A DNA stretch of 64,000 nucleotides from Dysidea avara (lineage: Eukaryota; Porifera; Demospongiae; Dictyoceratida; Dysideidae), in NCBI RefSeq assembly GCF_963678975.1, contig NC_089280.1, positions 14,893,280-14,957,279 of the forward strand, read 5' to 3'. Made by a program: the position numbers and the translations under genes. The first letter of the stretch is position 1. The number at the start of each line of letters is the position of its first letter. This document shows positions 3,773-63,250 of this stretch, one piece after another. A model generated the notes under the pieces. That model was not told the DNA's origin and did no database searches. It worked only from the letters and a program-made list of their open reading frames with translations.

Positions 3773-4099
3773 ATGAAAGTTTTTTTCCTGTACCCAAGGC
3801 ATCGCTGTGAATTGAAATGCAAACAATCAGGGATGTTAGACAAAATCGAAGAGACTTTGATTAGCCTCCATGCTGGTCTTCCTGGGTCATCAGCACAGGC
3901 AGCATCCGGCATAGAAGTACACACTTTACAATCCATCAAAAAAGTGATCGGAAAAAGAGATAGATCACATGCATGTAGTTGCAGTGACAAAAAGTATCTC
4001 TACTTTATTAAGCAATATGTCGCACCTGCGGGATACCTAACACCACTACATCTCCAAATCCACCATAGGTATGAAAAGAATATACTGGCCAGCATATAG
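3773..4099 (+). CDS. Hypothetical 108-codon open frame
   Basis: An ATG-initiated frame in somewhat less repetitive sequence, divergent from the transposase fragment at 3288-3548. It has no recognisable domain. Basic and cysteine residues are scattered (the middle reads KKVIGKRDRSHACSCSDKK), and there is no signal peptide or membrane segment. Composition is more protein-like than surrounding frames, but there is no supporting splice structure or homology that I can see. It may be chance or an exon of an unidentified gene. Confidence 0.2.
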   Translation: MKVFFLYPRHRCELKCKQSGMLDKIEETLISLHAGLPGSSAQAASGIEVHTLQSIKKVIGKRDRSHACSCSDKKYLYFIKQYVAPAGYLTPLHLQIHHRYEKNILASI

Positions 4100-4168
4100 C
4101 TATGGCTGGCTAGCTATATTGTTGTATTTTTATGGTTATGCATGTAGTTAAAGCTACTTCAGGTAGCT

Positions 4169-4226
4169 ATAATAGGTAGCTCAGGTAGCTCAGGTAGCTC
4201 AGGTAGCTCAGGTAGCTCAGGTAGCT
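4169..4226 (+). repeat. Tandem 9-bp repeat CAGGTAGCT
   Basis: About five uninterrupted copies of CAGGTAGCT followed by AGGTAGCTATAATA, with the same AGGTAGCTATAATA also on the left side. This is a simple microsatellite-like array with no coding content. Confidence 0.9.
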
Positions 4227-5619: not shown

Positions 5620-5745
5620 CATATTAGCCTGAAACTTTTTCAGGTTAAAAATATTAACCTGAAACTTTTTCCATCCACTATGTTTAACTTTTTCAGGTTA
5701 AACATATTAACCTGAAACTTTTTCCATCCACTAAGCTATGTTGAT
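5620..5745. repeat. Interleaved direct and inverted repeats
   Basis: The block TTAACCTGAAACTTTTTC occurs three times in variants. Each is paired with its inverse CTTTTTCAGGTTAA, giving short hairpins, and CCATCCACTA follows two copies. No protein is encoded. It looks like local duplication of a hairpin. Confidence 0.7.
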
Positions 5746-6256
5746 GCTCACTTTTTGACTAAAATAGCCTTTTCCACTCAAAAGTTATGAGTGATCAATG
5801 TTGATAAATCGGAATTGTGCGAAAGACCCATTTTCACAAATCCGGTCACATATTGTGCACGATTCGTAGCCTGGTAAGGTAGATGTATGTTCAATTAGAG
5901 TAGTTGAACGTAATCTTCCGTTCTTCCTCTCTCATAATGGCGAATCTTCCTGTTAGGATGCCTGATTGGAGTGATCATAGCTCGTTAAATTGCCACACCC
6001 ATTACGACTGTTCCTTCTCCCTTGCAGTGGTATTGCTGGTAATCCTCCTTTTTAAGTCTATCTGTAGTCACTGATCTGTTTGTATTTGTTTCACAGTCGT
6101 CAAATACTTCATCCAGTGCACAGTGATGTGAGCCTCAGGACGTCCATCCTTGTAGTGTACAGCACAGCAGGGCGAAGAGTGTGTATTCCCGGCGAGTCAT
6201 CCTGTCAAGTAGCCCGATCATAGCTCGTAGACTGCCTCGATTTTCCGTTTCTAGTT

Positions 6257-27580: not shown

Positions 27581-27997
27581 GGATTCACAAGTTGGCCCAG
27601 CAGTGACCTTACTACACAGTGTCCTGATTAGACAGGTTTCACTGTACTTAATGACCTGTATATATTCAATGTGAAAGAGTATTTTTTTTGTACAAGCATC
27701 ATGTAGATTACCTTACTTCTTCCACCTAGTTCCGGGACTTCTAAATTGGTACTACAGTGACAATGAAAGCTGTTTGGTCTGTACGAGTACACCTTGTTGA
27801 CAATCCATCCATGAGATATAATTTCAAGCGGGATAATCAACTTGGTACCATCACAGAAGTTTTCAGCTTGGCCTCAGTGAACTTGCACTAGTCAGTGCAG
27901 ACGTCTGACAGTCTAAAAACCAATCGCATACACGCGGTTATATGGGGTGCCATTTGTCTCAAAACCCCAAAAATTGAGATCTAAACTAAATATCGTT

Positions 27998-28235
27998 GAT
28001 ATTTACTAAACATCGACGACATTTAGCTAAACATCGACGACATTTAGCTAAACATCGATGACATTTACTAAACATCGACGACTTTTGCTAAACATCGACG
28101 ATATTTACTAAACATCGACGATATTTACTAAACATCGACGATATTTACTAAACATCGACGATATTTACTAAACATCGACGATATTTACTAAACATCGACG
28201 ACATTTACTAAACATCGACGATATTTAATAATTCA
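27998..28235 (+). repeat. 20-bp tandem array, left arm
   Basis: About eleven to twelve copies of ACTAAACATCGACGATATTT with variants GACATTTAGCT and GACTTTTGCT. It is located about 57 bp inside the left terminus of the 7.4-kb element. Confidence 0.95.
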
Positions 28236-28471
28236 TCTGTTTTTGCGTTTTAATTTTCTGCGAATCCTTCAGTATAATAATATTATGGGTGCTTATACTT
28301 GTAACTACTAATTGCTGATTAGCTGCTTGTGACTGTAGATGAACCATCTGTGGTGCTATGCGTGACTCATTAGGCTTGTTTTCATTAGGATGCGTCCACG
28401 ACCTTTAATGCGCGTTTATTAAGATCAATGTTACTGTCATCGGCGACGAGATGAACTGATCTCATCTGTGA

Positions 28472-34739: not shown

Positions 34740-35127
34740 TTGTGCATAAATCCTGTATGCTATAGAGTCTCTAGACCCTCGTTCACGTGAGAGTCTGTCT
34801 CTGCCAGACTGAGTTCTGTCACTGGAACATTGAAAAGCGAAAAACGTGCAGTGTACATGCTGTCACTTTTACAGCTTTAGAGCCTAACCCCATACCTCTT
34901 ATCCTCACAGATGAGTTCCTTCCTCTCAGTCCAACTCGTCGCCAACACAGCAACATTAACCTTAACAGATGCGCAGCATTAAAGGAGGTCCGAATGCCTA
35001 ATGAGTCACGTAGTACCACAGATGATTCATCTACAGTCGCAAGCAGCTAATCAGCAATTATTAGTATTGTATGCGCCTATAATGAAAGGATCCGCAGAAA
35101 ATTAAAACGCGAAAGCAGCTGAGTTGC
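34740..35127 (+). repeat. Inner part of the right arm of the 7.4-kb element
   Basis: Reverse-complement homology with 28236-28471 plus 29893-30010. It retains the site into which the foldback element inserted in the left arm (ACAGATGAG here). The 87-codon frame at 34787-35050 lies in this arm; the left arm does not keep it open, so I do not call it a gene. Confidence 0.7.
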
Positions 35128-35310
35128 TGAATATCGTCGATGTTTAGCGAATGTCATCAATGTTTAGCAAATGTCGTCGATGTTTAGTAAATGTCGTCGA
35201 TATTTAGCTAAATGTCATCGATGTTTAGCAAATGTCGTCGATGTTTAGCAAATGTCGTCGATATTTAGCTAAATGTCGTCGATGTTTAGTAAATATCGAC
35301 GATATTTGGT
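35128..35310 (-). repeat. 20-bp tandem array, right arm
   Basis: About nine copies of AAATGTCGTCGATGTTTAGC with variants, the reverse complement of the left array at 27998-28235. Confidence 0.95.
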
Positions 35311-35403
35311 TTAGATCTCAATTTTAGGGTTTTTGAGACAAATGGCACCCCATATTAATCAGTGTGAATGGATGTGGCACTTTGTACACTAGCCCCGTTT
35401 TTT

Positions 35404-37185: not shown

Positions 37186-38001
37186 CCCCCAAAAACACCT
37201 TCGCTGTAAAAAAAGGCACGTCCAAGAAACTACAAGTATCTGTAACCCCATGTAAAATAGATAATCTGTAGAAAAACACTCCATGAAATTAGTGGGTAAC
37301 TGAAAGAGCTGATATCTAGAGTGGCCAAGAATCAATAATGTCACTACAACTGACTATGATTACCAAAGAATACCTTGGCTGTAAAACAGGCAAATAAAAG
37401 TAACTGGCAACCAAAACAGCTGATATCTGAAGCGGCCAAGAATAAAAGTTAAGTTGATACAACTTACTACAATTATAAACTTGCAACATTGCATCCTAAT
37501 CATTCAACTGTGTTCTATACATTCACCCTTGCTACATCCTAAATTAATTCTTTGTAACTCTAATTGGCTGGTAATTTGGCTGCCTTTTTTTTCTTTACTC
37601 TGACTATTGAAAAATACGGCCAAATTACCAGCCAATTAGAGTTACAAAGAATTAATTTAGGATGTAGCAAGGGTGAATGTATAGAACACAGTTGAATGAT
37701 TAGGATTCAATGTTGCAAGTTTATAATTGTAATAAGTTGTATCAACTTAACTTTTATTCTTGGCCGCTTCAGATATCAGCTGTTTTGGTTGCCAGTTACT
37801 TTTATTTGCCTGTTTTACAGCCAAGGTATTCTTTGGTAATCATATTCAGTTGTAGTGACATTATTGATTCTTGGCCACTCTAGATTTCAGCTCTTTCAGT
37901 CATGGAGTGTTTTTCTACAGCTTATCTATTTTACATGGGGTTACAGATACTTGTAGTTACTTGGACGCACCTTTTTTTTACAGCGAAGGTGTTTTTGGGG
38001 G
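37186..38001. repeat. Near-perfect long palindrome (~816 bp)
   Basis: Left arm 37186-37580 and right arm 37619-38001, separated by a 38-bp loop. The arms match almost base for base from the loop edge (GCCAAATTACCAGCCAATTA) out to CCCCCAAAAACACCTTCGCTG. There are no long open frames of interest. Within each arm two related blocks, GGCCGCTTCAGATATCAGCT and GGCCACTCTAGA(T/A)TTCAGCT, repeat. It may be a foldback/MITE or a recent inverted duplication; a transcript would form a long dsRNA hairpin. Confidence 0.9.
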
Positions 38002-39689
38002 CAAATATATAATTACGGCTGAAAAATACTGTAATTACTTAAGATTTTGTTACTTACGTAGTAAAATCGGTACTCAAGTACTTGTTAAGATCATATGACC
38101 CAGCTCACACGATGCATTTGCCATCAAGGAGTGACACAATGAAAGCTATAGGGTTTGATTGGCATAATTTTTCTTATCAAGAACAATAACATCAGTTACC
38201 TACAATGAGGTATGTGGTCTGACCAATGAGATCATGAACTAGGGCAAAGTGTCCTGCCTGCACCCTCCCCCTTGGCAGTCTCACACTATTTGTAATACCT
38301 CAGAAACATTATAAGGTTGGGACTTTTGTAGATCTAGAGGTTTCACTGGTTTCTGGAAAACTGTTAGCTTTCTACAATCAAAAATGATTAAAACTAAAGT
38401 TCAAGTCTAAAACCAACAAACTACCTCTCTCTCCACACACTATATGCATGAACACCCACGCACACACGCACACACACACACACATATATATAGTCAAGCA
38501 AAGCCTTAGGCTACCCCTTGCCTGCCCAGTGTGCCAGCACTGTGACACCTCTGTGCTACTCAGGTGCTATGATTTAGTGTAGGCAATTCCTTCTGTGGTA
38601 GGATTAGTAACCCACAGGAAGCTGTACCATGTCTCACAGGTAAAGGTGTGGGCACCTGAAGACCTACCTGGACTTTTACCCACTATGTTACATGCTGGAC
38701 AGTTGACATTTGCTTGCACTGTCCGCATGCACGCACGCACACACACGCACACACACACGCACACACACACACACACACACCTGTTTAGGCAATTAGGCAA
38801 CAGTCCTTCCTTACCCACATACACCAGCCCTCCATCTTATCTTCACACCTATAGTATGTTCACGTTGACCCTCAAAAACATTTAATAACTCATGGATGCA
38901 ATTACACACGATCTTGAAATTTGGCTCATTTGTAGTACTGCTTGACCCGCTAAAAATATTTCAAAATCTTGTTCAAATGTTAGACATAATATTTACGGTC
39001 AATCAAAATTTTCACAATACATTTCCTATGGGAAAGCCATATAAGTACAGTGCCCAATACAGCCCTTTCCCAAACTTGTAATGGAGCCAAACCGTACGTG
39101 TCTGTTGTTGACACCTTTGCTGTTACCAATAATCATCTGGTTGGCTGAATTTTTAACTCTGTTGAGAAAAAACCCACTTTTAATGTTTAGCCGTTTTTCA
39201 GGATTCAGCTCAACGTGAACATACTATAGTAGTGTCTCTTCTTGTCACTCTCTCCATTGATCAAAAGAAGACATATGATTCATTTTCAAGGAAAGCAATG
39301 CACAAACACACACACACATGCAAACACTGGATTCAATGTTTATAAATACACAATTAAAGGTAAGGAGTTAGTGGGAAGTGTGTGAAATTTTTATTCACAT
39401 AGCTACAGCCATTGGTAAGCTACAATACTTAAAACCAGCATTTGTATTTTGGGGAATAAGACTGGTTTTCGCACATGAAGTCACAAATATATGCTCGGAT
39501 AATACAGCATGTGTGATTTTTATGTAACTGATAGCAAACCACTTTTTCTCTGTCACGGCACTTATCAATTAGATTTATAAGAGCCAACTCCGAAAAACTC
39601 TACACTATGGCTGCAGCACATATGGACAGATTTTGCCCAGGAAACATTTGTGCAATCATTACGGTGTAGGTATAAACTAACTAAATATA
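38002..39689. other. No gene recognised; two CA microsatellites
   Basis: (CA)n tracts at about 38456-38488 and 38720-38780. Between them is a 200-bp segment whose ends abut the CA tracts, as in the microsatellite-bounded SINE at 51775-52135. The rest is AT-rich with no exons. Confidence 0.4.
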
Positions 39690-40818
39690 CAAAAAATAAT
39701 TAAACAAAAGGTGCTACCAAAAGGTCTAGAAAATATTTTTTTTTAAAAATTAAACAAAAAGGTGCTACCAAAAAGTCCAGAGTGTAAAAAAATAATAATT
39801 AAACAAAAAAGGTGCTACCAAAAAGTTCTGAAACTGTAAATAAAAGGTAATTAAACAAAAAGGTGCTACCAAAAAGTCCAGAAAATATTTTAAAAAATGT
39901 CACTAATGGGTGCCATTTCACATTGGGAAGTTGGCCCAATCCTGATTGCCCACACGGACTTGGTCATATATGCAGGGGGCGGCCGGTGGGGCACCACATG
40001 GCCCACACGCGGACTTGGTCATCGGCTTTGCTAGTGACTTGGCCTAGCTAACCTACCAGAAGAAAGCTGTTAGGATAAGGGAGGAAACTGGCTGATCCTA
40101 GTCCGGGAATCGAACCCCTGATGCCAGCACCACCCGCAGGGTTTCCCAAGCGGTCTCCTTCAACCACTCTGGTCCATCAGCTAGGCACTGATGGAGTAGT
40201 ATTTTATGCATTTAAATACATAAAATTGAAGTTAAAAAAAATTTTTTTTTTTTAACTTCAATTTTCCCACTGTGGATCTGTACCATGGACCTCCAGGTGA
40301 GCAGCCCAATGCAGTAACCATTGAACAATTAGGACCACAATTGTAATGCACACCAATTAGTATATTTCTATCCTACGTGCTCTGTACATGTGTGTTATAT
40401 TAAAGACTCAGACATTAATTTTGCATCGTACTAAAGGGATAAATAAATAATTTTTGTTTAATGCTAAACAATAATAATTATTAGTGTGAAGTATCAACAA
40501 GTTAAGAAGAGTTATTAATATATATACCTTTGCGGAGTGAGTGTACTTATCGCAGGCGGATGATTGTACTATTACTTTATGCTCTGCATGGTACTACTCT
40601 ATGTGAAGATAATTTATTTTAAACACTTCTTGATGCTGAACAAATTACAACTATTTGTATGGAATATTAACATTTCAAGGATAGTCACGAAGGACTAAAG
40701 TAGTGGATTGGAAATGAGCAATGGTGCCATGGAACAGTAGAACACTAGCTTACTGTATAATTCTTTCATTATAGCTATATACAACATTCTTATTTACAAT
40801 TTCTGTAAAGAAATAATA
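39690..40818 (-). mobile_element. Composite two-headed SINE unit 1
   Basis: Read on the minus strand. The first tRNA-like head, at about 40335-40262, has AATGGTTACTGCATTGGGCT as a box-A region and a degenerate box B. A second tRNA-like head at about 40178-40098 reads CAGAGTGGTTGAAGG and GGGGTTCGATTCCCGG, a perfect box B. Then come about 200 bp of body and a tail of about four 50-60-bp units (GGACTTTTTGGTAGCACCTT) at 39697-39890. The serine/leucine-type long variable arm is suggested by the A-B spacing. The region upstream of head 1 (40340-40818) is AT-rich and conserved between units. Neither head is a functional tRNA gene. Confidence 0.65.
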
Positions 40819-41905
40819 ACTAAACAAGTAGGTGTTGCCAAAAAGTCCAGAAAATGAAACAAAAAGGTGCTACCAAAAAGTCCAGAGAGTGTAAAAAATA
40901 ATAATTAAATAAAAAGGTGCTACCAAAAAGTCCTGAAACTGTAAATAAAAGGTGATTAAACAAAAAGGTACTACCAAAAAGTCCAGAAAATGTAAAAAAA
41001 ATGTCACTAATAGGTGCCATTTCACATTGGGAAGTTGGCCCAATCCTGATTGCCCCCCAACTACACACGAGGTTGGTCATAGATGCAGGGGACAGCCAGT
41101 GGAGCACCACATGGCCCACACGCGGACTTGGTCATCGGCTTTGCTAGTGACTTGGCCTAGCTAACCTACCAAAAGAAAGCTGTGAGGAAACTGGCTGCTC
41201 CTGGTCCGGGGATCGGGCCCCTGATGCCAGCACCACCCGCAGGGTTTCCCAAGCGGTCTCCTTCAACCACTCTGGTCCATCAGCTAGGCACTGATGGAGT
41301 AGTATTTTATGCATTTAATACATAAAATTGAAGTTTAAAAAAATTTTTTTTTTAAATGTTCCCCACTGTGGATCTGTACCATGGACCTCCAGGTGAGCAG
41401 CCCAATGCAGTAACCATTGAACAATTAGGACCACAATTGTAATGCACACCAATTAGTATATTTCTATCCTACGTGCTCTGTACATGTGTGTTATATTAAA
41501 GACTCAGACATTAATTTTGCATCGTACTAAAGGGATAAATAAATAATTTTTGTTTAATGCTAAACAATAATAATTATTAGTGTGAAGTATCAACAAGTTA
41601 AGAAGAGTTATTAATATATATACCTTTGCGGAGTGAGTGTACTTATCGCAGGCTGATGCTTGTACTATTACTGTATACTCTGCATGGTACTCCTCTATGT
41701 GAAGATAATTTATTTTAAACACTTCTCGGTGCTGAACAAATTATAACTATTTGTATGGACTATTAACATTTCAAGGATAGTCACGAAGGACTAAAGTAGT
41801 GGATTGGAAATGAGCAATGGTGCCATGGAACAGTAGAACACTAGCTTGATGTATGATTCTTTTATTACAGCTATATACAACATTCTTATTTACAATTTCT
41901 GTAAA
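40819..41905 (-). mobile_element. Composite two-headed SINE unit 2
   Basis: A direct tandem copy of unit 1, offset by about 1.1 kb, highly similar throughout including the AT-rich region to 41905. The box B of head 2 is altered to GGGGCCCGATCCCCGG. The tail tandem units are at 40825-40995. Confidence 0.7.
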
Positions 41906-42117
41906 GAAATAATAACTAAACAAGCAGGTGCTGCCAAAAAGTCCAGAAAATGAAACAAAAAGGTGCTAACAAAAAGTCCTGAAACTGTAAATAAAAGGTA
42001 ATTAAACAAAAAGGTGCTACCAAAAAGTCCAGAAAATGTAAAAAAAAAGTCACTAATGGGTGCCATTTCACATTGGGAAGTTGGCCCAATCCTGATTGCC
42101 CCCCAACTACACACGGC
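41906..42117 (-). mobile_element. Composite SINE unit 3, interrupted
   Basis: Tail repeats and the start of the body, ending at CCCCCCAACTACACACGG. The following 1.6 kb is other elements. Sequence like the upstream AT-rich part of the unit (AAAGACTGAGACATTAATTT) resumes at about 43695-43800, so later insertions split or replaced this unit. Confidence 0.6.
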
Positions 42118-42218
42118 TAGTAGGGGATTTGACAACACCTCAAGGATGACTCATGCATGTGACTAGTATTTAACTTGAACACCTGTAGCTATAGTAAAAT
42201 TATAGCGAGTGCGATTTG

Positions 42219-43600
42219 ATTTTTTTTTTCCCCGGGCTGGATGGACTGCCCTTGCCTACCACCCCCAGCACAAAGAAAGCACGTGCTGGACAACTGAATA
42301 AAAAGGACCAGATTGCTGAAAGTTTAAAAGTCCCTGTGCTCATCAATGCGGCCCATCTCAGGAGAGGCATCAGAGGAGCGATGCGAGATGGACGTCTGAC
42401 TGTAACTAGTAAAGCCACGGCGAGATAGATGGTCAGCCAAACGACGGTAGAAAACTATTGCCTCCCTTCCCATACCTCCAGTGGTCGCAAACACAAGGGG
42501 AGTGAAGGAGGCCTGCTCAACCTCTCTGACACGGTCACCGTACTCACGTTTCTTCTGTGCCTCGTGACGTCGATACAAAGAGGGGACACTGGTGTTGCAG
42601 TAGCTTGGTGCATTAGGATGAAACACCCTTACGTCAAAAAAGGCACTTTGCCGCTGCCCCCAGAATCCCCTAGCATGTATGTCTGCCCTAGCCTCATGAT
42701 GTCCTGACGGTTGGCAGTCTTAGGTGCAATGATCTCCCCAGTAAGCGGCTGTAAAGGTGGCTCAAGGGCCATACCATGACATGTCTTGGAAAGCCACTCT
42801 GCAGTGATGTTTCGCAAAGCATTGTGGTGAACAAATGTGAGGCCTCCATGTCTGCAAATCATAGCATGATCCGTAGAAAATGGGACCCCACAAACACAGT
42901 GACTGGGTATGTTCAGGAGCTTCCAGCCGTATCTAAGATGCAAGGCATCCCAAAATTCTTGCTTCATCAGATGGAATCCCTGCTCTGCTAAAGGCAATGC
43001 TGTCAGCCAGGCAGAAGCACCCGGTTCACTGTTCAGGTCTAAAACTCTTTGGGATTGTGACGAAAGATTAGATTTGATCGTAGAAGCCCTCCCCCTCAAA
43101 GTAGAGCAACGATCCTGATGAATCTGAGCCTTGATAGAACTAACGTCGGGTAGAGGGGCTAGTAGATTCTGAGCAACAATCAAAGATCTCAGAGAGTGTG
43201 TGATTTTGATAGATGCAGTAAACTGAGAATCAGCAATGTCTACAGGATTGACAATACCCAAGCCACCTAGGCGGCAGGGTAGAGAGAGCACATCACGCTC
43301 TAAGGCAGAACAAGCACCATGGCCAGTGAGGGCAGGGATCAGCTTCAAACGGATGGCATCCTCTAGAGGCTGAAAAAGGGGCCCGACATTGGCAATGGTC
43401 CTCATGATGTATACCCACCGGCCTATCATCCCATGAGTGAAAGCACAAAAAGCCGCATGAGGACGATTTGTAGCAATCTCAGCCAAAGCAAGCACTTCAC
43501 TGGACCAAGAACAAACCTTCTTGGCCACAAACCCCTCTGCAAATTCTCGATTGTTCATAAAAGCAACTGCTGAAAATCGGTTAGTGACTGGGGACAACTG
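42219..43600 (-). pseudogene. 5'-truncated LINE, C-terminal half of the RT-endonuclease protein
   Basis: A 322-codon frame from 43597 to 42629 on the minus strand contains PHAAFCAFTHGMIGRW, LGGLGIVNP and LRYGWKLLNIPSHCVCG, then HAMICRHGG, a zinc-knuckle-like CVCG-H-C. PPLQPLTGEIIAPKTANRQD follows. After a one-base frameshift near 42640 it continues to 42324 as FFDVRVFHPNAPS and FTPLVFATTGGMGREA. This is the post-polymerase region of a LINE family common in marine invertebrate genomes, as I recall it; D-x-DVR resembles a PD-(D/E)XK nuclease but that is tentative. It ends in a CCCGGGG-A10 tail at 42219-42234. RT is absent (5' truncation). Confidence 0.75.
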
Positions 43601-43695
43601 TCAATTGCCCCAGGGGTGGGGACAAGAAGCAATGTCAAATCCCCACTTGGGGTCTGGGTACGCCCGGGTGGGGCATGTAATTGACAAGTGCATAA
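43601..43695. mobile_element. Remnant of a GC-rich MITE related to the Harbinger family
   Basis: Holds GTCAATTGCCCC, TGTCAAATCCCCACTTGGGG and GGGGCATGTAATTGACAAG, then TGCATAA. These resemble the interior and right end of the MITEs at 30158 and 43826. TAGGGGATTTGACA at 42121 may be its other half, with the LINE inserted between. Confidence 0.4.
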
Positions 43696-43825
43696 AGACT
43701 GAGACATTAATTTTGTATTCTACTAAAGGGATAAATAAATAACTTTTTATTAATGCTAAGTAATTATAATTACTTTTACAAGTTAGGAAGACTTATTAAT
43801 GGAAGAATCACGCTTATATAGCTTA

Positions 43826-44162: not shown

Positions 44163-44422
44163 GTTACAGTTTCCATGTGTTATTGAATAGATCGAGTTAA
44201 GGACCAATTGACTGCTGGAAATTTAGGTGTCACCATTAGCGAGGTAACAATATCCAGTACAATAATTGTTGCTAGGGTAACAATGGTGGTATAGGTGTTG
44301 GTTTGGTGTGGCGGCCTGAGAAGAGAAGGAGAAATTACATCATCAAAACTTCCTGAAGCACGTGCCAGCTAGAGTACTAAGAATTTACAAAATGTTAGCT
44401 GTGTTACTCTGTAATTTTTAAC
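44163..44422. other. No gene recognised
   Basis: Sequence between the MITE and the MULE terminus, with no exon-like segment. Its last nine bases (ATTTTTAAC) are the probable left copy of the MULE target duplication. Confidence 0.4.
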
Positions 44423-44461
44423 AAATCCCGTTATGCGACGCGAAGCAGGCGCTTGTAACCA
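44423..44461 (+). repeat. MULE left terminal inverted repeat
   Basis: 39 bp, perfectly complementary to 55135-55173, GC-rich relative to its surroundings and with several CpG (GCGACGCGAAGC). It lies 60 bp upstream of the transposase start codon, so it may also contain promoter elements. Confidence 0.95.
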
Positions 44462-44520
44462 AGGTTACCTGGTCACTTGATATTCGCGCATTTTTTGAAT
44501 GGTTTGCGCTTGTCAACGTG

Positions 44521-47500
44521 ATGAGTGGTGATTGTTGTGTAGACGCTGTAAGCTTGACAGAACAGCTGAAAGGTGTGTTACCACCTATTGAACTGGGTAT
44601 AGATGAACTGGCACAAGAAAGTGATGCTCAGGTAAGCTTTTGCTTAGGATAATCCTTCTTACCACTAAGTTACCAGTTTGTGGTCAGACTATACTGTATA
44701 GCATCAGTGGTAATTCACTAATATTATAGCATACTGTTATTAGTTCTTAATTATTTAGTCTGCATGAAATTGTGAGCCTGTATCCAGCCAGAGTTAAAGA
44801 GAATTACAGCTAAGGTGAACTTGGAGAAGGCATGGGTATGCTTTCTTACACGTACCTAAATATGCCACTTTTACCATAACGTCTTTTGACAATTATTTTG
44901 GTATATTTGCACTGTAGTGTTCATGTGCATGTATCATATAGTAGCTGTTTCGACTTCAAAGTGAAAGTAAGCATATTCACATATTATTCCAGAGATATTC
45001 ATTGTCCACAAAGAATGTGTAGTTTATGAGATTACAGTAGAACAATTTTTTAAGGTTGCAAGCTTGCTCATATACTAGTTGCACACGGTGACACATATGT
45101 AGTATCTACAATAATTTATCATTCCCATGTGTAAGGCCTACTTGTTCCTGCCACTTTTCTTCATTAACAAATGAATACATATAAGGTGCATGTAGTTGGT
45201 TTGATTATCATACACCAAAATTATTGAGAATTTCTTACGAAACAATTTCTAACTGCCATGTTGTAGAATGCTATTCTATGTAAGATTTGTTCTATTAAAG
45301 TGGTTTGTATTACATACAATTTGGAGAAATGTTAGTAGAATTGTTATACATTAGGGGGTTCAGTTATATAATAGCTATACCATGCACACCAACCTGTATC
45401 AAATTACTCACACACACACATATGCATATATACGTGTATATATAAGCAACCAGTATATGGGGGGGGGAGAGCTCAATGACAACCACATCTGCTATGTTGT
45501 ATGTGGCTTGTTGAGCAAACGTGTCTGTTTTTTGTATTTTGCACTATGTCTCATGGTAACGGTGTAACCAAGTGTTATCTCAGTACATCTTGTTGATTTT
45601 TTTCTTCATCCAGTCTCAGCCTGCAGTGGTAAAGAATTTTCAATGTAACATCTGTTTGCAGAAATTTACAAGAAGCACAAACCTTAATAGTCACAAGGAG
45701 ACTGCCCACGGTGAAGAAGGAAAACATCATGCTTGTAGGTTTGAATGTCCAAAATGCGATGCTCGATATCGGACAATGACAGAATTGGTATCCCACTGTA
45801 ATGAATATCACCATGACATTAATTTTGGTTTGTATTATCTATATATTTAACTATTAAGTGTATATATGATATATATGTAGGGATGCAAAATCATGAGTTT
45901 GAGACCAATCAAGAATGTATAACATGGAAAGAAAAAGAAGAGGCTACCTCAAATACACACTATATCCTACACCATCAGCCCTATGTGATGTCATCAAGCG
46001 AAAATGATGGTGTTAGTGGTAAGTTATTTTACTACGTTCAGATATTCAGTTCTATTATTGCCATTAGATGTAGCACAGGAACGCTACTATTATGTATGTT
46101 GCCGAGATGGAAACTACAAAGCATCCAACCAGCCACGCAAAACTCAGAAAAAACGGCCACATCAAAAGCCAAGCAGAAAACTGGGGAAAACATGCATCTC
46201 TCGAATGTATGTTACTAAGTTTAGCTCGGGTAAAATGGAAGTCAAGTTCATCTCAGCCCATTCCAATCACAACCCAGATGAAGATGAAGCTGGATTTGTA
46301 CCACTGCCAGTAAGTACAAAGGAAGAAATTGCTATGAAGCTTAGTGTGAGGATTTCGATTGAAAGAGTAATGGAAGGTATTTAGTACTGCATGTATGCAT
46401 GCACACACAGACATTCATACAGACATGAACATGTCTGGTGCATATAATATAAAGTAGTAATATACACTGGCTATCATATATATAAGTGTATCACATAATA
46501 TATGAGCTTATCTGAGATGTTTACGCAGTAGTTTTAGTACGTAATTAATATTATTGCTAGACATTAAGGAGGGTGTTGGACATCGCACTATGCGAAAACA
46601 GTTTCACGAGTCTCTGTCTCGAAAGCACTTAGCATCCAGAAGGGACATCTTAAACATCAAACATGGCACTCTAGATCAATCAGTCATACAGCATAGTGAT
46701 GATGCTACATCAGTTCAATTGGCTGTTAATGCACTCCAAGAAGAGGAATACAATCCCATTCTGTACTTTAAGCCCCAACACATTGATGATGAAAATAATC
46801 CACAGCTATCAACGGACACCTTCATACTGATTTTACAAACAGAATTTCAGAGGCAAATGTACAGTCAGTTTTGCTCTAAAATTGTGTGCATAGACTCAAC
46901 ACATGGCACAAATTCGTATAAATTTAAGCTCATCACATTGTTAGTATCAGATGATTTTGCTGCAGGTTAGTTGTGATTCCATCGTGGCTTACTCTTGTGA
47001 TCTATTTATCTACTTAACTTGCGCAGGCCAGCCTGTTGGATGGTGTATTACAGACAAGGAGGATAGAGATGTTGTGAAAATTTTTCTAGAAAAGATGAAG
47101 ATGAAAAGTCCAGATTCAGAAGTATCAGTAATTATGACAGATGATGGTAGGTCATATTAAAATAATATTTTTTTAGAATCATAGTTATTGCTTTTTGTTA
47201 AACATGATATCATTATCGCTGCATGTATGTAACTTCAGACAATGTTGGATGGAAAGCAGCACAAGAAGTGTTTGGACAAGGACTGCATCACTTACTTTGC
47301 CGGTGGCATTTAGATAGGTAAGCGTGTATGTATGTATGGTTCAATTTATACACCACATTATGTACATGTGCACATATATTTGCATATACTGCATGTAATG
47401 TACACTTTGCAATGCTCTTACAATTACATATACTGTAGATCATGGAGAAACAATGTTCGATCAAAAGTCTCACAACCAAACCAACTGGATATATATCAGA

Positions 47501-50500
47501 CACTCTGCATTATGGAAAGTGAGCTGGATGAAGAAGAATTCAAAAGGATGATCTGCTCCTTTGTGCAACACTGGGAAAAGAAAGAAACAGTATTCATTAA
47601 ATATTTCCAGGAAAACTATTTAAATAGATGAGGTAAGAAATATACTATTAGCTCGTTTTACGTACACATAATTGAAGCATCACACACATACATACATTAC
47701 AGTGTATTGTTGCAAAGGTATGTATAAACAAGAATAATATTAAGCAGGTACTGGCAGCAACAACACATTAATTTCCTTAGAGTACTGGCAGTAAGCAACA
47801 CATTGCTGTGTAGATGACAACTTCCTTAGAGTACTGCCTGTGTTTGTGTGTATGAAAAAAAACAGTACTCTTGGTGTGCCCCAAGACTAATACAGTACTT
47901 GGCTTAGTTTTGTGCTGTATTAGTCTCTTAACATTTCCCTTGTGCTGCATTTTCCACACAAGTGTATGTATCCTATACAGTAACATTATGCTTTTATTAC
48001 ATATAGAGAAATGGGCACGGTGTTTTCGGAAATTTGCACATGCTGATACCGACACGAACATGTACTTAGAAAGGTATGCAGAAGTCAGTCAACAACAATG
48101 AGCAATATCCGCAATGACTTTTCATGTATATCTATCTATGATGTGACAAAACAAAATGGCTGCTGTAGTGTGGGGACATTGTACAGGAAGGCATTGGGCG
48201 AGATAACACACAATTGAGCATGTGAGTATAGTACTAAGGGAAATGTAAAACAAAATCCTCTAAACAATATTCAGTAAAACACCATGCTGCTAAAAATACA
48301 TAATAATACATGAAGGCTGCTACCATTTTTACAGTATAAGACTCCTATGTATGTTTGTAAAAAGCTCTATATAACATAGTACAGTACATTAGAACTTGTA
48401 TTTACAATGTATCTGTAGCACGTTAATGTATAATATTACTATATGTAGCTTTCACAATAAACTGAAGACAGTCTACTTAAATGGGAAAGTGAACAGGAGG
48501 ATTGATGTCCTACTTGATGTTCTTTTGAAGATTGAACATGATCAGTTTTTTCAATATGAAATGAAACACCGTCTATTATACCCAAATAAGCAGACCATCA
48601 AAATTGAAGATGCACACAAAAGGGGAATAAAGATCTCACCAGAATCAGTAAATGTAACTGTAATAGTTTATTAAGTACATGTGCTCATGTGTATTTTATA
48701 TAGAAAATTTGTGACACCCAATGGCATATACCTAGTCAGTCTGGGAATCATTTTCCAGGGTACACCATCACAAAGCTGGCAACTACTTGCAGAAACACAA
48801 ACTGCACAATTAAATGTAAAATTTGTGGTGAATTGTGTTATCACTTGTACAAATGTGATGACATGTGCTACGATTACATGAACGGAAACCTCTGCAAACA
48901 CTTACATCGAATTCACTCCTTGTTAGTTGATTCTGCAGAAGAAGCGCAAATTGATGATTCAGCTAATGTTGAGATGGTAGTAACTGATGAGGAGACAGAA
49001 GACACCGAGGAGACCCATGATCCAGTCAACCCACAATACAGTTTGCCAAATGGTTCTTCCAGAAGCACCTGTGAGATATTAGTGTAGTAATCAAATGAAG
49101 AAAAGATGTTATATACACATCTATCATGTATGCAAAAGCAAGAGTTCATAACGAAGGAAGTTGGTCACATGTCATCATTCATCTCGTGATCTCTAAGAAA
49201 GTGTTGAACTAATTCAACATTGACACATATCTCTTACTATTCTAAAGGACAAATTGTATATACATACCATAGTGTCCCAGAGCCCTTACAAACCTTCTCA
49301 GTAAAACGCACTACTTTCCTAGCTGCTGAACAAGCCTTAACACTTACAACAATGCTGAATTTCACATCATAGGGTTATATGACGTGTGACCAACCTCCTC
49401 TGGGTTCATAAATCCTCTATAATTTTAATATTCTGTAAAACATTTAATACTATGAACTCTTGGCAATAGTTATAACAAAAGTAGGCTTACATATACGTAG
49501 TTGCAGGTGTAGGTAAATTCCCCATACTTCTCATTATTAATTTAATATTTGTTTGTTATACATATTTCAGAGCTTTCCCCAGCAAAACAAAGTAGAGCAG
49601 TGAAACTGCCAATATGCTTACCAATATCAAAGTCAATTAGTTAATAATATACATGTATTCGTTTTATCGTCAAAAGAATTTTTAGTAAAGTAGGGTGGTG
49701 TTGCACCATTTTATCACTCTTTAGGGAAGCTCTGTAATTCAACATTAATGAACTCATACGTATATATATATATATATGCATGCCACATCATAGGAAAGAA
49801 TATAGTATGCAAGAGATATTAGAATTGCTCATGTAGTAGCTTAGTGTACAAATTGTTACTAAATAAAAATAAATTCTGTATATCCCCAGCCAGTTTTGCG
49901 GCAAGGTTTTGACACACAAAATATTGACCTTTGCATTATCAAGTACATGTGTAGCTGAGGACATGACTATAGTGGAACATCAATTGGTTGTTTACTTTAG
50001 TACTAGCTGTGTTCTGTGTAATACACAGGTTTGCATACAGACGCAAACATTTCAGTAGCCAATCTGCTCAACTAAACTGTAAAAGATGAATAGTAGTAGT
50101 ACCTCATGCAAGACGATTCTTATTGTTAATGTCAAGAGTATGTGTTTGGAATCTCAAAGGTTTGTGTTTCCAAAAATATATCAACCTCAATACATATGTT
50201 GTATGGTGCTATAGTGCTATTTGCCGGGTATGATCCGATGTATTGAAATTACCTGAAAGCTTCCAAAAATTTTCAATGTTCTGTTTAACAACACTCTACT
50301 GATAGACTGACCGAAATAATTGAACATTGCTTTTGTAGTACTTATGAGCAGTTGCTGGTATATGTAGGGTAGCTATATCACTTAAAATAAAGAATGTTTC
50401 ACATCTTAGGCCAATTTCAATAAACTTTGTGTTTTTTTGGCAAGAAAGATCCTATATTTTCAGTACAAAATATAGTAATATAATTATTTTGTTCACCTAG

Positions 50501-53500
50501 CAAGTAGACATAATTCCATGAATGGATTACAAAAGTAAGGAACACTCAACGTTACCACCATGTACCCTGTCGTTGGCTACTGACAAATGGTACAGCAATT
50601 ATAATGTAACTTAGCTACCATTTGACATGAAAGGTGTAGCCATTTTCACTCTGCTAGTTGCAACATGGATCAAGAATTTTAATCATCAAAAAATTGCCTT
50701 GATCACTTGATTTTATTTTTAAAAGTATCTTGAATCTTGATTGCCAACCATATAAGCTTACTAAATTCTTTGTGTTGCTGCTTGATTGCCATTTCTGCAG
50801 GACACCTTAATTGCTTCATTCACCGCAAAACAGCACCCTGACTGGATCTCAATCATGCTTCGACAGGTAGTATAGAAGTGACTACCCCTTGACACTTTTC
50901 AGCCAGCAAAAAATTTATTTTCATACTATTCAAGGGTCAACACAATTCAGTATTACAGTGGAATTAACTTGTATTCGCAGCTACACCATAGGTCACATAT
51001 TTCATTTAACCGGGTGGCTGTATTACTGCATAATTGTCTCTTTTGCAAAGCTTATTGATTTAACACATATTGTACAAGATTGTGATACATAATATTAATC
51101 ATGTAAATACTAGCCTTTACTTATGTTGCCTTGTTCTATTATCAGTGAACTTTTTACTTCTTTCATTGTCTATAGCATGTGAACATCATTTACAGATAGC
51201 ACAAAATTTACTAGTCCAATTACAAGCTATGATAAGTAGTGGAAATTCAGGATTGCAGCATTGCTTACCTCATGTAAATGCAACATTAAAGAAACTTGTA
51301 TACACTTGTGATGCTGCCAGCAAGATGGATACTACAGGCACAATTACTTCCTTTGAAGACAAGGAAAATTTTGCTCCTGGAAAGAAAATGAATCTTCAAC
51401 CACGATTTACTGCTACCAGTAATACTCCTGGACGCAAGAAAAGAAAGAATGTGTTACAGTATGTAAATGATAAATTTTCTATTTACATACAGTGTGCTTA
51501 TACATAATAGCTACACACAGACACACACACTAGATACAAACTTACTATACACACACACAGAGACAACACACACTAGTTACGTACATACAGTGCACACCAG
51601 CTACACATACACACACTAGATACAAACTTACTAACTACACACACACACACACACACACACATACACACTAGTTACATACATACAGTGCACACCAGCTACG
51701 TATACACACACTAGATACATACGTACAGTACATATCAGCTCTACATATATACACACACATACACAAAGCAAAGCCCATGAAACATAGCACCAGCACCGGG
51801 ATATCTGGCATCACTCAGGAACTTGACCCTTGTGCAGGCAAATCCTCCTGGGGCAGGACTTGTAACCTGCGGAAGGACTGTCCAGGTATCACAGAGAGAG
51901 GTTGCAGAACCCGAAGTTCTGTAAACACCAGGTACCTACCAATTGATGTTACAGCTGGGCGGGCTGCTTCCCCAGATGACACCAGTCCACCAGGTCCCCA
52001 ATATACTGCTGGGTAGACTGGAGCATGAAGAAAAGATTCTTGCTCAAGGAATCAACAACACCAAATTGGCATAAACAGGCATCGAACCTGGAAGCTTTTG
52101 ATTGCCAGGATGATGCTCTAGTCACTTACACACACGCACGCACACACGCACACAGAGTACATACATTAGCTATACACATACTAGTAATGTACTAGTTACA
52201 CACATGTGTGTGGTGGCTAGTATGTACTGTACGTAACATAGAGTACATACTAGCTATATATGTACAATACATACCCTGTACACATACCCTATACACATAG
52301 TAGTTACATATGTATGTACAGTACTTAATAGTTACACACATAATACATACTAACACACAATTTTGCTGTGAATAGACTAGGGTAATCATGATAACAAGAT
52401 AGTTACACATGTACGGACATATTTAATGACTGCAAGCTGTGTACCTACTTAATGATTGTTATACTACAATGTAATCATTTAAACTTCCACCAGTCTTAGT
52501 ACTGTGTATTGGCTTTATGAAAGGTCTTAATAGTGCAGCAGGTTTATGTCTGGTATATAGTTTCACTCTATATTTTTGAAATTAGTTTCATTTGTAATTT
52601 TGTATCACGTGTGTCTTGTGCTGTTTTGCTGGTTATGGCTGCCATATGTGACAATACAGCTATGCTGATAAAGAAAGTAAGCAACACATTAGAAAGGTAC
52701 TGGTAGCAACAATAGATGATGACCCTAGTAATGAGGCAAGACAACAAACAAATACGATAACATGTGATGTAAGAATATAATAACATACTGATGCTCTATC
52801 ATCATGTCATGTGCTGCACAGGATACCACTGAAGTGCAGGATGATGTAACCACAAAGAAAGAACGTGAAACTGGTATGTACAAGTACACATAAGCATTAC
52901 TGTATATGGATGCACAAAGGAATATTGGAAAATCACGTAATTGTTTACTAACAAACACACTGGTGTTGTACGTCAGCTTCTTGTACCACCCAAGTGTGCA
53001 CTTTGATTTACCTGACTCTTAAAATAAAAATGTCCGTGTGCATCTACACAGTTGCTAATGTGTAATATGTTGACATGGTAAGTTTTAATTTTGCAATAAT
53101 TTAGACAAAAATCTGTGTGTATAAAGATTTGTACATACTTTAAAATTAAACCATATACAGTAGCATGTTGTCAATAAGCTGATACGTACCTGACAAAAGC
53201 AGGATTTTTTATTTATTTATTTTTTTTTAATTCTCAACATTTCAGCCAATTAGATAATTAGAATGCTTCATCACAAATTTGGAAAGAATCATACCGCAAG
53301 ACAGGAAACTCTGAAGAAAAAAAATTTGACAAGTTTAACAAATTATTGGTTACATTTGTCAAATTTTAATTTGTGTCAATTATCACCTCAAAACTTACTT
53401 AGGGTTTAGATCTGTGATTTCCTGCTTTTCATCAAATTTTTTAAGCTGATTAATTGTGAATTCGTCAAATTTTATTTTCGTCAATAATTTCCTGTTGTAC

Positions 53501-54879
53501 AGTAACAGAATGTATACTTTTATGGTTTCATCATAAGAACATATGGTGAAACTTTCATGGGGTGCAGACACAGATATTTGGTTTTGAAATGTTATGTAGG
53601 TCAAGTAGTACTACAGATGTAACAAATTTCAATTACGCTGCTATAAATCCATCCATGTGTTAATAAAAAATTGAGCTATCAACTGCATAGGAGATGAATG
53701 CACACATACAGTGTACTGTAAACATGCATCTGTATTCTTGCTTGATGCAATCAGAATGATTATACACCTGTATATTGTACACTTGGTATAACATATTATA
53801 GTGGGAAGCAAGCGTGTAGGTACCAGATGTGGAGTGTGTGATGGATGTACTACTACAGTTGACTGCAGCTGCTGTAAGCACTGCAAGGACAAGAAAAAGA
53901 ATGGTGGTCCAGGACGGCTTAAGAAAACATGTATCAAGAAAGTGTGTACTGCAATAAACAGTGCAAATTCACGACTGACTGTACTTCAAGAAACATTGCA
54001 AGCTTGTAAGGTTTTAACAAGATGTTCATATGTCACTTATGCTCAAACAGATACTATTGCTCAAACACTAACTGCAGTAACAAGTGCAACAACATCAAGT
54101 TCATTGTTCTTGAACTCAGGTATGTAATAGTTGAAGCTATATGTGAATGACACCATTTTTTAAAATAGATCAATGCACAACTAATTCCTTGCCAAAGATG
54201 TCCGTTGCACAATATTACCAGGTACGTGTATATGTTGCGGCAATAATATCAAATACTGATTGTATAGGGAATAGCAGCAGGCACACTCAACAAGTTACCA
54301 ACAGCCAAAATAGCCGATGATCCAATCCCCCCACAAGTTCTCCATTTGTTTAACACTTGCAGTAGTAACTTTAGTGCAGCAGCTCTCTTCCTCAAACGAC
54401 AAGGAAGAATTGAGAGCGTGTTGGGAGATGGGAACTGTCTGTTCCGCTCCCTTGCCTTTAATGTACACAAAAACCAAGATATGCATGTGAAGACCAGAGA
54501 AGACATCACACGGTTTATCAAGCAACACAAACACATGTTTCAACCATATTTAACACAAGACAGGAACATTGACAGACATTTACACAACATGGCAAAGCCT
54601 GGTACATGGGGCACACAGGTTGAATTACTAGGGGCAGCAACACTCTACCAAGTGCCAATCTACGTTGCCAGCACAAGTCAAGATCAAACATCTCACTGGA
54701 GGAAGTACACTCCACTTACACACCTGAAAACTATTGAAGAGACATGCACAAATAAAAGCTACATGGAGATAGCCCACCTAGATTCTTGTCATTTTGACCC
54801 CATTGTACCAGTAGACAGTAACAGTAGTAGTGAACCAACTATAATGGCAAGGCACCACCAAGGAGGAACGATTCATTAA
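44521..54879 (+). CDS. MULE transposase fused to C2H2, SWIM-like, CXXC and OTU domains; one in-frame TGA
   Basis: Exons: 44521-44631, 45614-45827, 45881-46018, 46068-46376, 46561-46965, 47027-47146, 47239-47317, 47439-47632, 48007-48073, 48449-48647, 48704-49070, 51176-51458, 52660-52768, 52822-52873, 53802-54119, 54169-54221, 54268-54879. All junctions are GT-AG with matching phase; total 3630 nt, 1209 codons. Residues 46-69 and 80-103 are C2H2 fingers (CNIC...H..TAH, CPKC...H...H). Residues 155-225 form a FLYWCH/FAR1-like region (YYYVCC, HSNHN). The MULE catalytic core has D369 (CIDSTHGTN), D432 (MTDDDN), LLCRWHLD at 451-458 and E545 (TNMYLESFHN). A cysteine-rich SWIM-like zone lies at 615-680 (CKHLH). 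A CXXC finger with all eight Cys is at 892-931 (CGVCDGC, KNGGPGRLK). An OTU peptidase spans about 1050-1190 (GDGNCLFRS with D1060 and C1063; H1181 in SCHFD). Codon 523 is TGA, the last whole codon before an intron; otherwise the frame is open. Inferred: cut-and-paste transposase with CpG-reading and deubiquitinase-type modules. Confidence 0.85.
49071..51175 (+). other. Intron 11 of the MULE gene (2.1 kb)
   Basis: The largest intron. AT-rich. One segment at about 50803-50866 is open in one frame (DTLIASFTAKQHPDW) between AG and GT, but including it breaks the exon 11 to 12 phase, so it is left out. No repeat families were recognised. Confidence 0.5.
51508..51770 (+). repeat. CA-rich minisatellite in MULE intron 12
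   Basis: Two to three units of roughly 110 bp made of (CA)n, ACACTAGATACAAACTTACT, CACTAGTTACRTACATACAG and TGCACACCAGCTACRTATAC blocks. It adjoins the SINE at 51775-52135. Confidence 0.8.
51775..52135 (-). mobile_element. tRNA-derived SINE bounded by CA repeats
   Basis: On the minus strand the element begins near 52125 with TGACTAGAGCATCATCCTGG (box-A-like), followed by CCAGGTTCGATGCCTG (box B) at about 52093-52078. It then has a 280-bp body ending at 51775 beside (TG)n/(CA)n. It lies inside MULE intron 12 and antisense to the gene. The 79-codon plus-strand frame at 51777-52016 is not a gene. Confidence 0.65.
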
Positions 54880-55134
54880 ATAACTAATGACTTATTCTCG
54901 ACTTAGCTATTAATATTGCAAAGAGTTACTTGAGTTTTATCTTATTTTAATGTGGGAGCCTAATGTGGGAAGGTTAAGAAATACAAACAGTAATGTACAA
55001 AACACAACTTACTGGCGAGGAAGACAACGGTGTACAATTGAGAAGCAGGTGAATTAACTGAACAAATGAAGTCCCCGTAGTCCAAAAAGCGCATCAAACT
55101 ACACTGATTAAGCGCACAAAATATTACGTTCTCA

Positions 55135-55173
55135 TGGTTACAAGCGCCTGCTTCGCGTCGCATAACGGGATTT
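55135..55173 (-). repeat. MULE right terminal inverted repeat
   Basis: Exact complement of 44423-44461. It lies 256 bp downstream of the stop codon of the transposase gene. It is followed by AATGTTAAC, the likely right target duplication. Confidence 0.95.
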
Positions 55174-55281
55174 AATGTTAACCGTGTGTGCGTGTTCGTG
55201 ATTGATTGGTTGGTATACAAGTTTGAAGTTTCTTATATCAAGAATTCACTAATATTAAAAACTCTTGTTTATATTCATTAG

Positions 55282-61828: not shown

Positions 61829-62404
61829 TACTAGTGTATGGTTCATTTTGTTACTATAGGCCACTCATACGTAACTTGTGCAATGGCAATGCAATCTTCA
61901 GGCATTCGGTGTAATGAATACTCTGATATAACCTGTAGCATGACAGGGTGTGGTTTGTGCCCAAATACCCTGTTTTCGCAGGCCCTGTCACCAACATGCA
62001 CCTCTTCTCAGTTTAGAATTAGCTATAGACTCACAGAATTGTAGACTGAGGACAAACACATTGAGCACAGACAAAGCTACACAACACTGACACAATAACT
62101 ATTACAACTGTAGTAAAATAACACTCAAGCCACTGAGATGTCGACCACACTGTAGCCTGGTGCTGAAAGAAGTGCTGACTATAATATGTATGAATAAAAT
62201 AAAAATGTCTCCAAACCATGTCCAGCATTGTTTAATGTTTACGACCAGTCTATTGGTGGCTGAAGCAAAATTTAATACCCTCACCAGACCAAAATAATAA
62301 TTTCTTACAGGACTGGTATATACATGTACTCTGGTTGCTATAATGACTATTGCTACCACTGGTTACCGTATTATAGTGTCACTAATGGCCCACTTAGCAT
62401 GTTT
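61829..62404. other. No gene recognised
   Basis: Ordinary AT-rich sequence between the MITE and the SINE copy. Short frames on both strands lack features. Confidence 0.4.
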
Positions 62405-63250
62405 CCAATTGAAACAAAAAGGTAATTAAACAAAAGTGCTACCAAAAAGTCCAGAAAAGTGTAAAAAAATAAAATAAGTAAAGAAAAAAGTGCTACCAAA
62501 ATGTGTTGAAAATGTCAAAAAAATAAAATAATTAAACAGAAAAAGGTGCTACCAAACTGTCCAGAAAACGTAAAAAGAATATCACTAATGAGTGCCATTT
62601 CACATTGGGAAATTGGCCCAATCCTGATTGCCCCCCCAGCTGCGCATGGGCTTGGTCATGGATGCAGGTGACGGCCGGTGGGGCACCACATGGCCCACAC
62701 GTGGACTTGGTCATCAGCTTTGCTGATAACTTGGCCTAGCTGGCCTGCCAGGGGGGGGCTGTTGGGATGGGGGAGGGGGCTGGCTGCTCCTGGTCCAGGG
62801 ATTGGGCCCCTGATGCCAGCACCACCCGCAGGGTTTCCCAAGTGGTCTCCTTCAACCACTCTGGTCCATCAGCTAGGCACTGCTATTTAAATACATAAAA
62901 ATTGAAGTTAAAGAAAACAACTTTTTAAATGTTCCCCACTGTGGATCTGTACCATGGACCTCCAGGTGAGTAGCCCAATGCAGTAACCATTGAACAATTT
63001 GGCCCACAATTATAATGCACACCAATTAGTATATCTCTATCCTACTTGCTCTATACAGTTGTGTTATATTAAAGACTGAGACATTAATTTTGCATTATAC
63101 TAAAGGGATAAATAAATTTTTTTTAATGCTAAACAATCATAATTATTAGTGTGAAGTATGAACAAGTTAAGAAGAGTTATTAATATACCTATGGAGAGTG
63201 AGTGTACTCATCGCAGGGTGATGCTTGTACCATTATGCTAAACTCTGCAT
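62405..63250 (-). mobile_element. Composite two-headed SINE, dispersed copy
   Basis: The same organisation as the units at 39690-42117, 20 kb away: tail repeats at 62410-62575 (diverged), body, head 2 at about 62875-62795 (box B altered to GGGGCCCAATCCCTGG), head 1 at about 63005-62935, and AT-rich upstream sequence to about 63250. It shows that the composite, with its upstream part, moves or duplicates as one unit. Confidence 0.65.

Follow-up and report, generated by a model that had tools for sequence, protein, structure and literature searches.

A degenerate Mutator-like element of the sponge Dysidea avara with predicted CXXC and OTU modules on its transposase

An element of 10,751 bp in the genome of the sponge Dysidea avara raises the question of whether a single transposon gene can carry, on a Mutator-like element (MULE) transposase core, both a CXXC zinc finger and an OTU peptidase domain, or whether these modules belong to separate genes that happen to share the same pair of terminal repeats. 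The element spans positions 44423-55173 of a window of 64,000 nucleotides (NCBI RefSeq assembly GCF_963678975.1, contig NC_089280.1, positions 14,893,280 to 14,957,279 of the forward strand), and coordinates given below without a contig prefix are counted from the first letter of this window. An initial annotation had described it as an intact-looking MULE whose transposase is fused to C2H2, SWIM-like, CXXC and OTU modules. Our comparison of related sequences suggests that it is very probably a degenerate copy of an autonomous-type MULE, and one of a lineage of five families with this fused architecture. The spliced gene it contains is most likely that of a single modular transposase, which would be read from one mRNA.

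Element ends, exon chain and domains

The inverted repeats that bound the element are 39 bp long and perfect, which confirms the initial annotation on this point: the left repeat (44423-44461, plus strand, five CpG) is 100% complementary to the right one (55135-55173, minus strand). With up to three mismatches allowed, the inner 33 bp of the repeats has two matches in the window versus none in 100 dinucleotide shuffles. The flanking 9-mers, ATTTTTAAC on the left (44414-44422) and AATGTTAAC on the right (55174-55182), form a candidate target-site duplication with identity at 7 of 9 positions, and 72 of 20000 random pairs do as well. Perfect 9-bp duplications were found at the outer ends of a split copy on C2 (GTATATAAC) and around two relatives described below, the family B copy c14 (GATTTATTT) and the family C copy c2c (ATTTAATTA). 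Elsewhere the duplications are less clean, lying in an A run at the copy C7b and being imperfect at C7a, and for the relative c1z a duplication was looked for and none was resolved. Terminal inverted repeats and these perfect 9-bp duplications agree with membership in the MULE superfamily, for which a target-site duplication of 8-11 bp, usually 9 bp, was taken as the standard.

Between the repeats, the proposed chain of 17 plus-strand exons could be rebuilt with GT and AG at all 16 introns, consistent phases and 1209 codons followed by a terminal stop. Exon 1 (44521-44631) supplies the start codon, and its frame and donor are preserved in all four copies that have the exon. Exon 2 (45614-45827) encodes two C2H2 fingers, and exons 3 and 4 (45881-46018 and 46068-46376) a FAR1/WRKY-GCM1-like region. 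The MULE/RNase-H core is encoded by exons 5-7 (46561-46965, 47027-47146 and 47239-47317), with a Pfam match at about 46818-47312; judged by motif, these exons presumably carry the first two catalytic Asp residues. Exon 8 (47439-47632) follows, and then exons 9 and 10 (48007-48073 and 48449-48647), whose ESFHNKLK sequence we take to be the catalytic Glu motif. Exon 11 (48704-49070) contains a SWIM-like motif at 48854-48901. Exons 12-14 (51176-51458, 52660-52768 and 52822-52873) encode a linker, and exon 12 is matched at the further loci c1z, c14, c5 and c10. Finally, exon 15 (53802-54119) contains the CXXC finger at about 53819-53947, and exon 16 (54169-54221) is followed by exon 17 (54268-54879), with the OTU domain at about 54424-54792 and the stop codon. 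Within intron 12, a stretch between simple repeats (51766-52135) looks like an inserted repeat, and it ends in a tRNA-like GGCATCGAACCTGG motif that we take to be like that of a short interspersed element.

Although its splice sites and phases are consistent, the rebuilt chain is not open, and the element therefore not intact, since exon 8 has an in-frame TGA at its 3' end, in codon 523 (47629-47631). The catalytic D, D and E are all present in the chain but not in an open frame, the TGA sitting past the second Asp and ahead of the Glu. Because the three other copies that have exon 8 all read a sense codon at this position, we regard the TGA as a defect of the window copy. With the stop between the second Asp and the Glu, no complete transposase can be made from this copy as read, and no full protein unless the TGA is bypassed. 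An alternative exon 8 donor that avoids the TGA was considered and rejected: the best GT between 47560 and the TGA (at 47590) scores 2.0 versus 10.2, and its use would remove matched residues. A coding-potential scan was positive in frame for 15 of the 17 exons and negative for exons 15 and 16, with other frames sometimes scoring higher.

With respect to domain content, a Pfam search was run on the read-through protein with X placed at the inner stop. Matches above the cut-off were obtained for PF21056 (ZSWIM1-3 RNase-H-like, E 4.6e-16), MULE (PF10551, E 9.9e-11), zf-CXXC (PF02008, E 4.8e-7, 30.2 bits versus a cut-off of 26.5) and OTU (PF02338, E 4.5e-14), in the order along the chain that had been proposed. 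All eight Cys of the CXXC finger are present, and the OTU domain retains the catalytic DGNC and the late His. The zf-C2H2 profile scores 18.4 bits in the whole protein, below the cut-off of 25.2, and 32.6 bits when only a short piece containing the two fingers is searched. A FAR1 match is below threshold (21.2 versus 28.1 bits), no FLYWCH match is listed in the Pfam searches, and exon 11 has no Pfam match, SWIM included, at an E limit of 10. The MULE, CXXC and OTU assignments of the initial annotation are thus borne out by profile, as is C2H2 in the short piece, whereas its SWIM-like module stands by motif only: a regular expression identifies Cx3C..CKH in the window, and the homologous place in c5 reads CxC..CKH. 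The nearest solved structures are FBXL19 (1.2e-8) and KDM2B (2.9e-8) for the CXXC finger and OTUD3 (1.3e-11) for the OTU domain. A single-sequence structure model of the OTU exon was poor (predicted local-distance difference test score 34) and was not carried on to a fold comparison. No relatives turned up in viral, phage and prokaryotic collections, which were searched by methods that detect close relatives only.

Recurrence of the module order in the sponge genome

If the CXXC and OTU exons are part of the element, they should accompany its ends elsewhere. A search of the host genome (550.8 Mb in 108 contigs) with the left 218 bp gave 16 matches, five of which cover the whole query while most others are end-only. 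These five insertions are the window copy, C7b, C7a, C4 and the split C2 copy, with the end-only matches on C8, C12 and C13 left out. C7b is a full-length copy that carries all modules. C7a (C7:21252407-21256475) is a deletion derivative that has lost the transposase core and retains exon 1 and exons 14-17 between the element ends. At C4 the CXXC exon is present, and exons 16-17 and the right end were not found in the 3.7 kb beyond. The two C2 pieces (C2:8884945-8893137 and C2:9170922 onward) correspond to element positions 1-4242 and 4241-10751 and are taken as one insertion because the same 9 bp lies at their outer ends; the halves are about 280 kb apart through either a rearrangement with its breakpoint inside the element or a misassembly. 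Copies ending before 53802, named in the initial annotation as grounds for refuting the fusion, were sought, and C7b, C7a and C2, all of which have a right end, contain both the CXXC and OTU exons. A separate 8.15-kb element at C1:13254128-13262280 has ends that are 90-91% identical; at an E limit of 1e-3 it shows no resemblance to the MULE gene at the protein level, and it is probably a non-autonomous relative.

The same association extends well beyond close copies. Matches to single exons number at least 122 for the OTU exon, at least 100 for the CXXC exon and at least 51 for MULE exon 5, these counts being lower bounds. An OTU match follows no more than 5 kb downstream, on the same strand, for 68 of the at least 100 CXXC matches, the median gap being 380 bp, and none shows another arrangement; random placement gave a mean of 0.3 and a maximum of 3 in 1000 runs. 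The 51 MULE matches merge into 44 loci, of which 12 have both CXXC and OTU within 15 kb downstream on the same strand, 3 have CXXC only and 9 have OTU only, versus a mean of 0.13 MULE loci with CXXC or OTU under random placement. As a separate observation, for 55 of the at least 122 OTU matches no CXXC match lies immediately upstream, and these may belong to other transposon types.

Ten further loci were compared segment by segment, chosen as the best-scoring OTU matches and leaving out C5:15023589 and C14:8452411 of similar rank. All ten are colinear on one strand, with 0 of 53 rows on the opposite strand and no matches in a reversed-query control; CXXC and OTU are present in 10 of 10 and a MULE piece in 8 of 10. 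Segment identities are 30-79% at nine of these loci, which are diverged, and 78-93% at c10, a close copy that has decayed. Diverged pieces above the Pfam cut-off comprise CXXC in 4 of 4 (43-54 bits), OTU in 3 of 3 (43-53 bits) and PF21056 in 1 of 1. Grouping by similarity gives five families, namely A (window and c10), A2 (c1z), B (c14 and c9), C (c2c, c8, c1y, c1x and c4b) and D (c5), and DGNC is present in all five, HFD having been read by eye in the alignment. Because the same strand and order recur at all ten loci, we conclude that the CXXC and OTU modules belong to the element and are not a one-off accident. The c14 locus (C14, 2.25-2.27 Mb) is flanked on either side by long arrays of inverted repeats, a foldback-like setting, and appears to lack the exons bearing the first two catalytic Asp residues.

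Several observations weigh against a lineage of autonomous-type elements with a fused architecture. None of the five insertions is undamaged. The window copy has its TGA, and each of the others bears lesions of its own: stops in exons 2, 6 and 17, frameshifts in exons 4 and 15 and a changed DGNC in C7b; an internal deletion and an insertion in exon 17 in C7a; a frameshift in exon 2 and loss of the intron 7 acceptor in C4; and, in C2, a stop in exon 12, loss of the intron 3 donor and frameshifts in both exon 4 and exon 15. At the level of the genome, and with single-exon queries that are insensitive, 32 of the at least 100 CXXC matches are without OTU, and 20 of the 44 MULE loci have neither CXXC nor OTU within 15 kb in any arrangement, these 20 including the left half of the split C2 copy and a locus at C9:11.01 Mb with CXXC 20.8 kb downstream. 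The family C piece matches PF21056 at 54.5 bits, but its MULE profile score is 14.4 versus a cut-off of 27.6 bits. Moreover, CXXC and OTU identities across the five families are uncorrelated (rho -0.06, 10 pairs). An alternative is that host CXXC and OTU genes were accidentally trapped between the repeats of the window copy. MULEs are described as capturing pieces of host genes (PMC6446971), but the same order is found in every other insertion extending to these exons and at 10 of 10 further loci, and the CXXC-OTU and MULE pairing is genome-wide. We therefore reject such a trap as extremely improbable, the modules being shared with other copies and diverged loci.

A probable single gene

A more serious alternative is that the element contains two genes in a MuDR-like layout, with a MULE gene ending at the TAG at 49085-49087, just after exon 11, and a separate CXXC-OTU gene beyond it. 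The junction in question is intron 11 (49071-51175), which is the longest of the chain (2105 bp) and has a leave-one-out donor score of 0.0, only that of intron 10 being lower (-0.8). Without splicing, exon 11 would run into a stop after no more than 17 nt, hexamers resembling polyadenylation signals occur at 49862, 49868, 50386 and 50419, and the retention of exon 1 and the last exons without the core in C7a is also in keeping with two transcription units. Yet the donor and acceptor of intron 11 are both intact in 3 of 3 copies. At the diverged and damaged C5 locus, the gap between exons 11 and 12 is about 55 bp as read by eye, which leaves no space for a terminator and a promoter, and at c1z the match to exon 12 starts at residue 5, ahead of the first Met of that exon. 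The remaining junctions are likewise compact, with about 420 bp between the exon 12 and CXXC matches at c1z and about 270-340 bp between the CXXC and OTU matches at c2c and c1z. Since each junction is short in at least one family, and order and strand are constant, one gene is favoured, and we consider a two-gene arrangement improbable.

Substitution patterns give a mixed picture of constraint on this gene. In comparisons of exons 1-11 with C4 and C2, third codon positions are changed at 4.6-4.9% and first and second positions at 2.1-2.5%, but no codon-position constraint is visible against C7b. For exons 12-17, changes at positions 1/2/3 are 4.8/3.2/3.2% between the window and C2b and 5.5/2.4/5.1% between the window and C4, and thus reveal no clear constraint. 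Indels in multiples of three make up 8 of 16 in exons versus 30 of 183 in introns (p 0.0035); after merging of shared events the figures are 5 of 12 and 19 of 110 (p 0.058), and we therefore do not use this excess as support. Stretches in c5, c1x and c2c that appeared to join exons in tblastn searches were dropped after frame inspection, being gapped across introns or stops.

CpG-rich ends and the possible roles of CXXC and OTU

The composition of the element ends may bear on what a CXXC finger would do for such an element. The window as a whole has an observed/expected CpG ratio of 0.42 and a TpG+CpA ratio of 1.35, as in a methylated genome, and the terminal 140 bp on each side (44423-44562 and 55034-55173) are CpG-dense, with 9 CpG in the outer 100 bp per end versus 1.2 per 100 bp across the element. 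Of the 63900 window 100-mers, 314 reach this density; the element ends account for 61 of these, and most of the others fall in tandem arrays at 28 and 35 kb or at 60.6 kb. The five CpG of the 39-bp end are reached by 79 of 3789 GC-matched window 39-mers. The ends of c1z, c14 and c2c have CpG ratios of 1.0-1.6; the long end of c2c stands out less, 3.7% of 200-mers having at least its 10 CpG. In other copies, 102 of 341 aligned CpGs of the body are changed (96 to CA or TG), and the terminal 140 bp show 5 changes among 67 CpGs (p 5.6e-5), whereas non-CpG sites are changed alike (988/32261 and 27/843); because the window copy enters every comparison, these rows are not independent. The pattern fits unmethylated ends on methylated bodies, and selection for a promoter would give the same.

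It is close to an even chance that the CpG-dense ends are promoter-like or constrained in sequence for reasons that have nothing to do with the CXXC domain. In genomes that are methylated, promoters rich in CpG escape the modification, and the window has further CpG-dense stretches that are not associated with CXXC. In addition, non-CpG sites of the 39-bp repeats are nearly invariant (1/203 changed), so selection on the ends explains part of the CpG signal. Against this, in the 100 bp just inside the repeats non-CpG sites change freely (26/640) while CpGs change little (3/32 versus 102/341 in the body, p 0.013), and the high CpG ratios recur at the ends of c1z, c14 and c2c. Neither of these points ties the CpG pattern to the CXXC domain.

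The two 20-bp CpG-rich tandem arrays (27940-28269 and 35086-35355) are mutually inverted, and together with the element ends they account for 260 of the 314 CpG-dense 100-mers. Other features of the surrounding window include a near-perfect hairpin at 37208-37978 (two 291-nt arms with 98% complementarity and 20 nt between them, and more inverted arms outside) and a repeat of about 1.1-kb units at 39674-43772, with a diverged copy 21 kb away at 62399-63216. Minus-strand open frames of 323 and 131 aa lie at 42324-43600, and the 323-aa frame has no Pfam match.

In terms of function, we propose a protein with two C2H2 fingers, a FAR1-like region, a DDE RNase-H core, a SWIM-like motif, a linker, a CXXC finger and a C-terminal OTU domain. 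The C2H2, FAR1-like and SWIM-like parts would bind the element ends, and the DDE core would cut and join with a 9-bp stagger, as in cut-and-paste transposition. The CXXC finger would tether the protein to unmethylated CpG, most plausibly in the CpG-dense ends of the element itself, and the OTU domain, with its catalytic motifs retained, would act as a local deubiquitinase on the transposase itself or on proteins of chromatin and repair. That the transposase reads its own unmethylated ends is a tentative suggestion, which we think less likely than not. In its extended form the model is of a methylation-gated transposase, in which only unmethylated copies would be bound, mobilised or kept open and ubiquitin marks would be stripped at their ends; this, too, we consider less likely than not.

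A difficulty for CpG reading lies in the CXXC finger of family A. The window copy has KNGG in place of the canonical KFGG, as do all four other copies having the exon and also c10, and it has KK where FBXL19, KDM2A and KDM2B have KQ before a Cys. The KFGG and Gln of these nearest solved relatives, which are thus replaced in family A, are residues that we take to contact CpG. It is accordingly possible, at somewhat below an even chance, that this finger no longer reads CpG and has taken on a different role, for example in contacting proteins or DNA in general. All eight Cys are nevertheless retained, and KFGG is found at seven of the ten further loci (c1z, c14, c9, c1x, c1y, c2c and c8), with KFGR in c4b and KFNG in c5. 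Three of the four other families thus keep KFGG, and the lineage therefore largely keeps the feature, although the case for CpG reading by family A is weakened by its KNGG.

Comparison with described systems bears on how unusual this architecture is. The initial annotation knew of no description of the combination, and its novelty is only partly upheld. Dupeyron et al. (2019, PMC6446971) describe animal MULEs with C2H2, SWIM and FLYWCH fingers, and an OTU domain ('Ovarian Tumour Gene') in MuDR-6_HM of group 14; that element has no zinc finger and no terminal inverted repeat in the table of the paper and is compared here by description only. The Phantom, Spectre and Curupira-type MULEs of the same paper resemble ours in having C2H2, FLYWCH or SWIM on a MULE core and duplications of 8-10 bp where given, but neither CXXC nor OTU is given for them, and CXXC does not occur in the main text. 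Among other transposons, Ginger1 has a C-terminal OTU or Ulp1 domain on an animal DNA transposase, with a Gypsy-type integrase core rather than a MULE core, and a repair role has been suggested for such domains (PMC2836005). Helitrons with OTU or VTD deubiquitinases likewise encode an OTU, but with a rolling-circle RepHel; transposon OTU domains had not been assayed for activity according to that report (PMC9741609). A MULE protein that acts on silencing marks of its own noncoding regions is known from VANDAL/VANC, although these are plant elements and the abstract names no CXXC or OTU (PMC10398659). DNA transposons with TET/JBP or SET, MuDR families included, similarly carry epigenetic enzymes, but these oxidise methyl groups or methylate histones and are not CpG readers, and neither CXXC nor OTU occurs in the main text (PMC12730594). 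Passages of PMC12460157 place CXXC in host DNMT1 and TET only. No CXXC-bearing DNA transposon was found among the papers listed by searches of the open-access literature that named CXXC, most subscription journals and Repbase Reports lying outside their scope; it is thus the CXXC finger, and not the OTU domain, that appears new.

Methylation sensitivity of DNA transposon ends is usually regarded as a property of the host. If the proposed model is true, this element would carry its own means of sensing whether it is silenced, a feature shared by a lineage of MULE families. With a CpG reader and a deubiquitinase combined in one protein chain, the source of that sensitivity could be tested directly using a single purified domain and a pair of ends, methylated or not. 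The CXXC finger, known from KDM2, FBXL19, CFP1, MLL and DNMT1, would also join the modules acquired by cut-and-paste elements.

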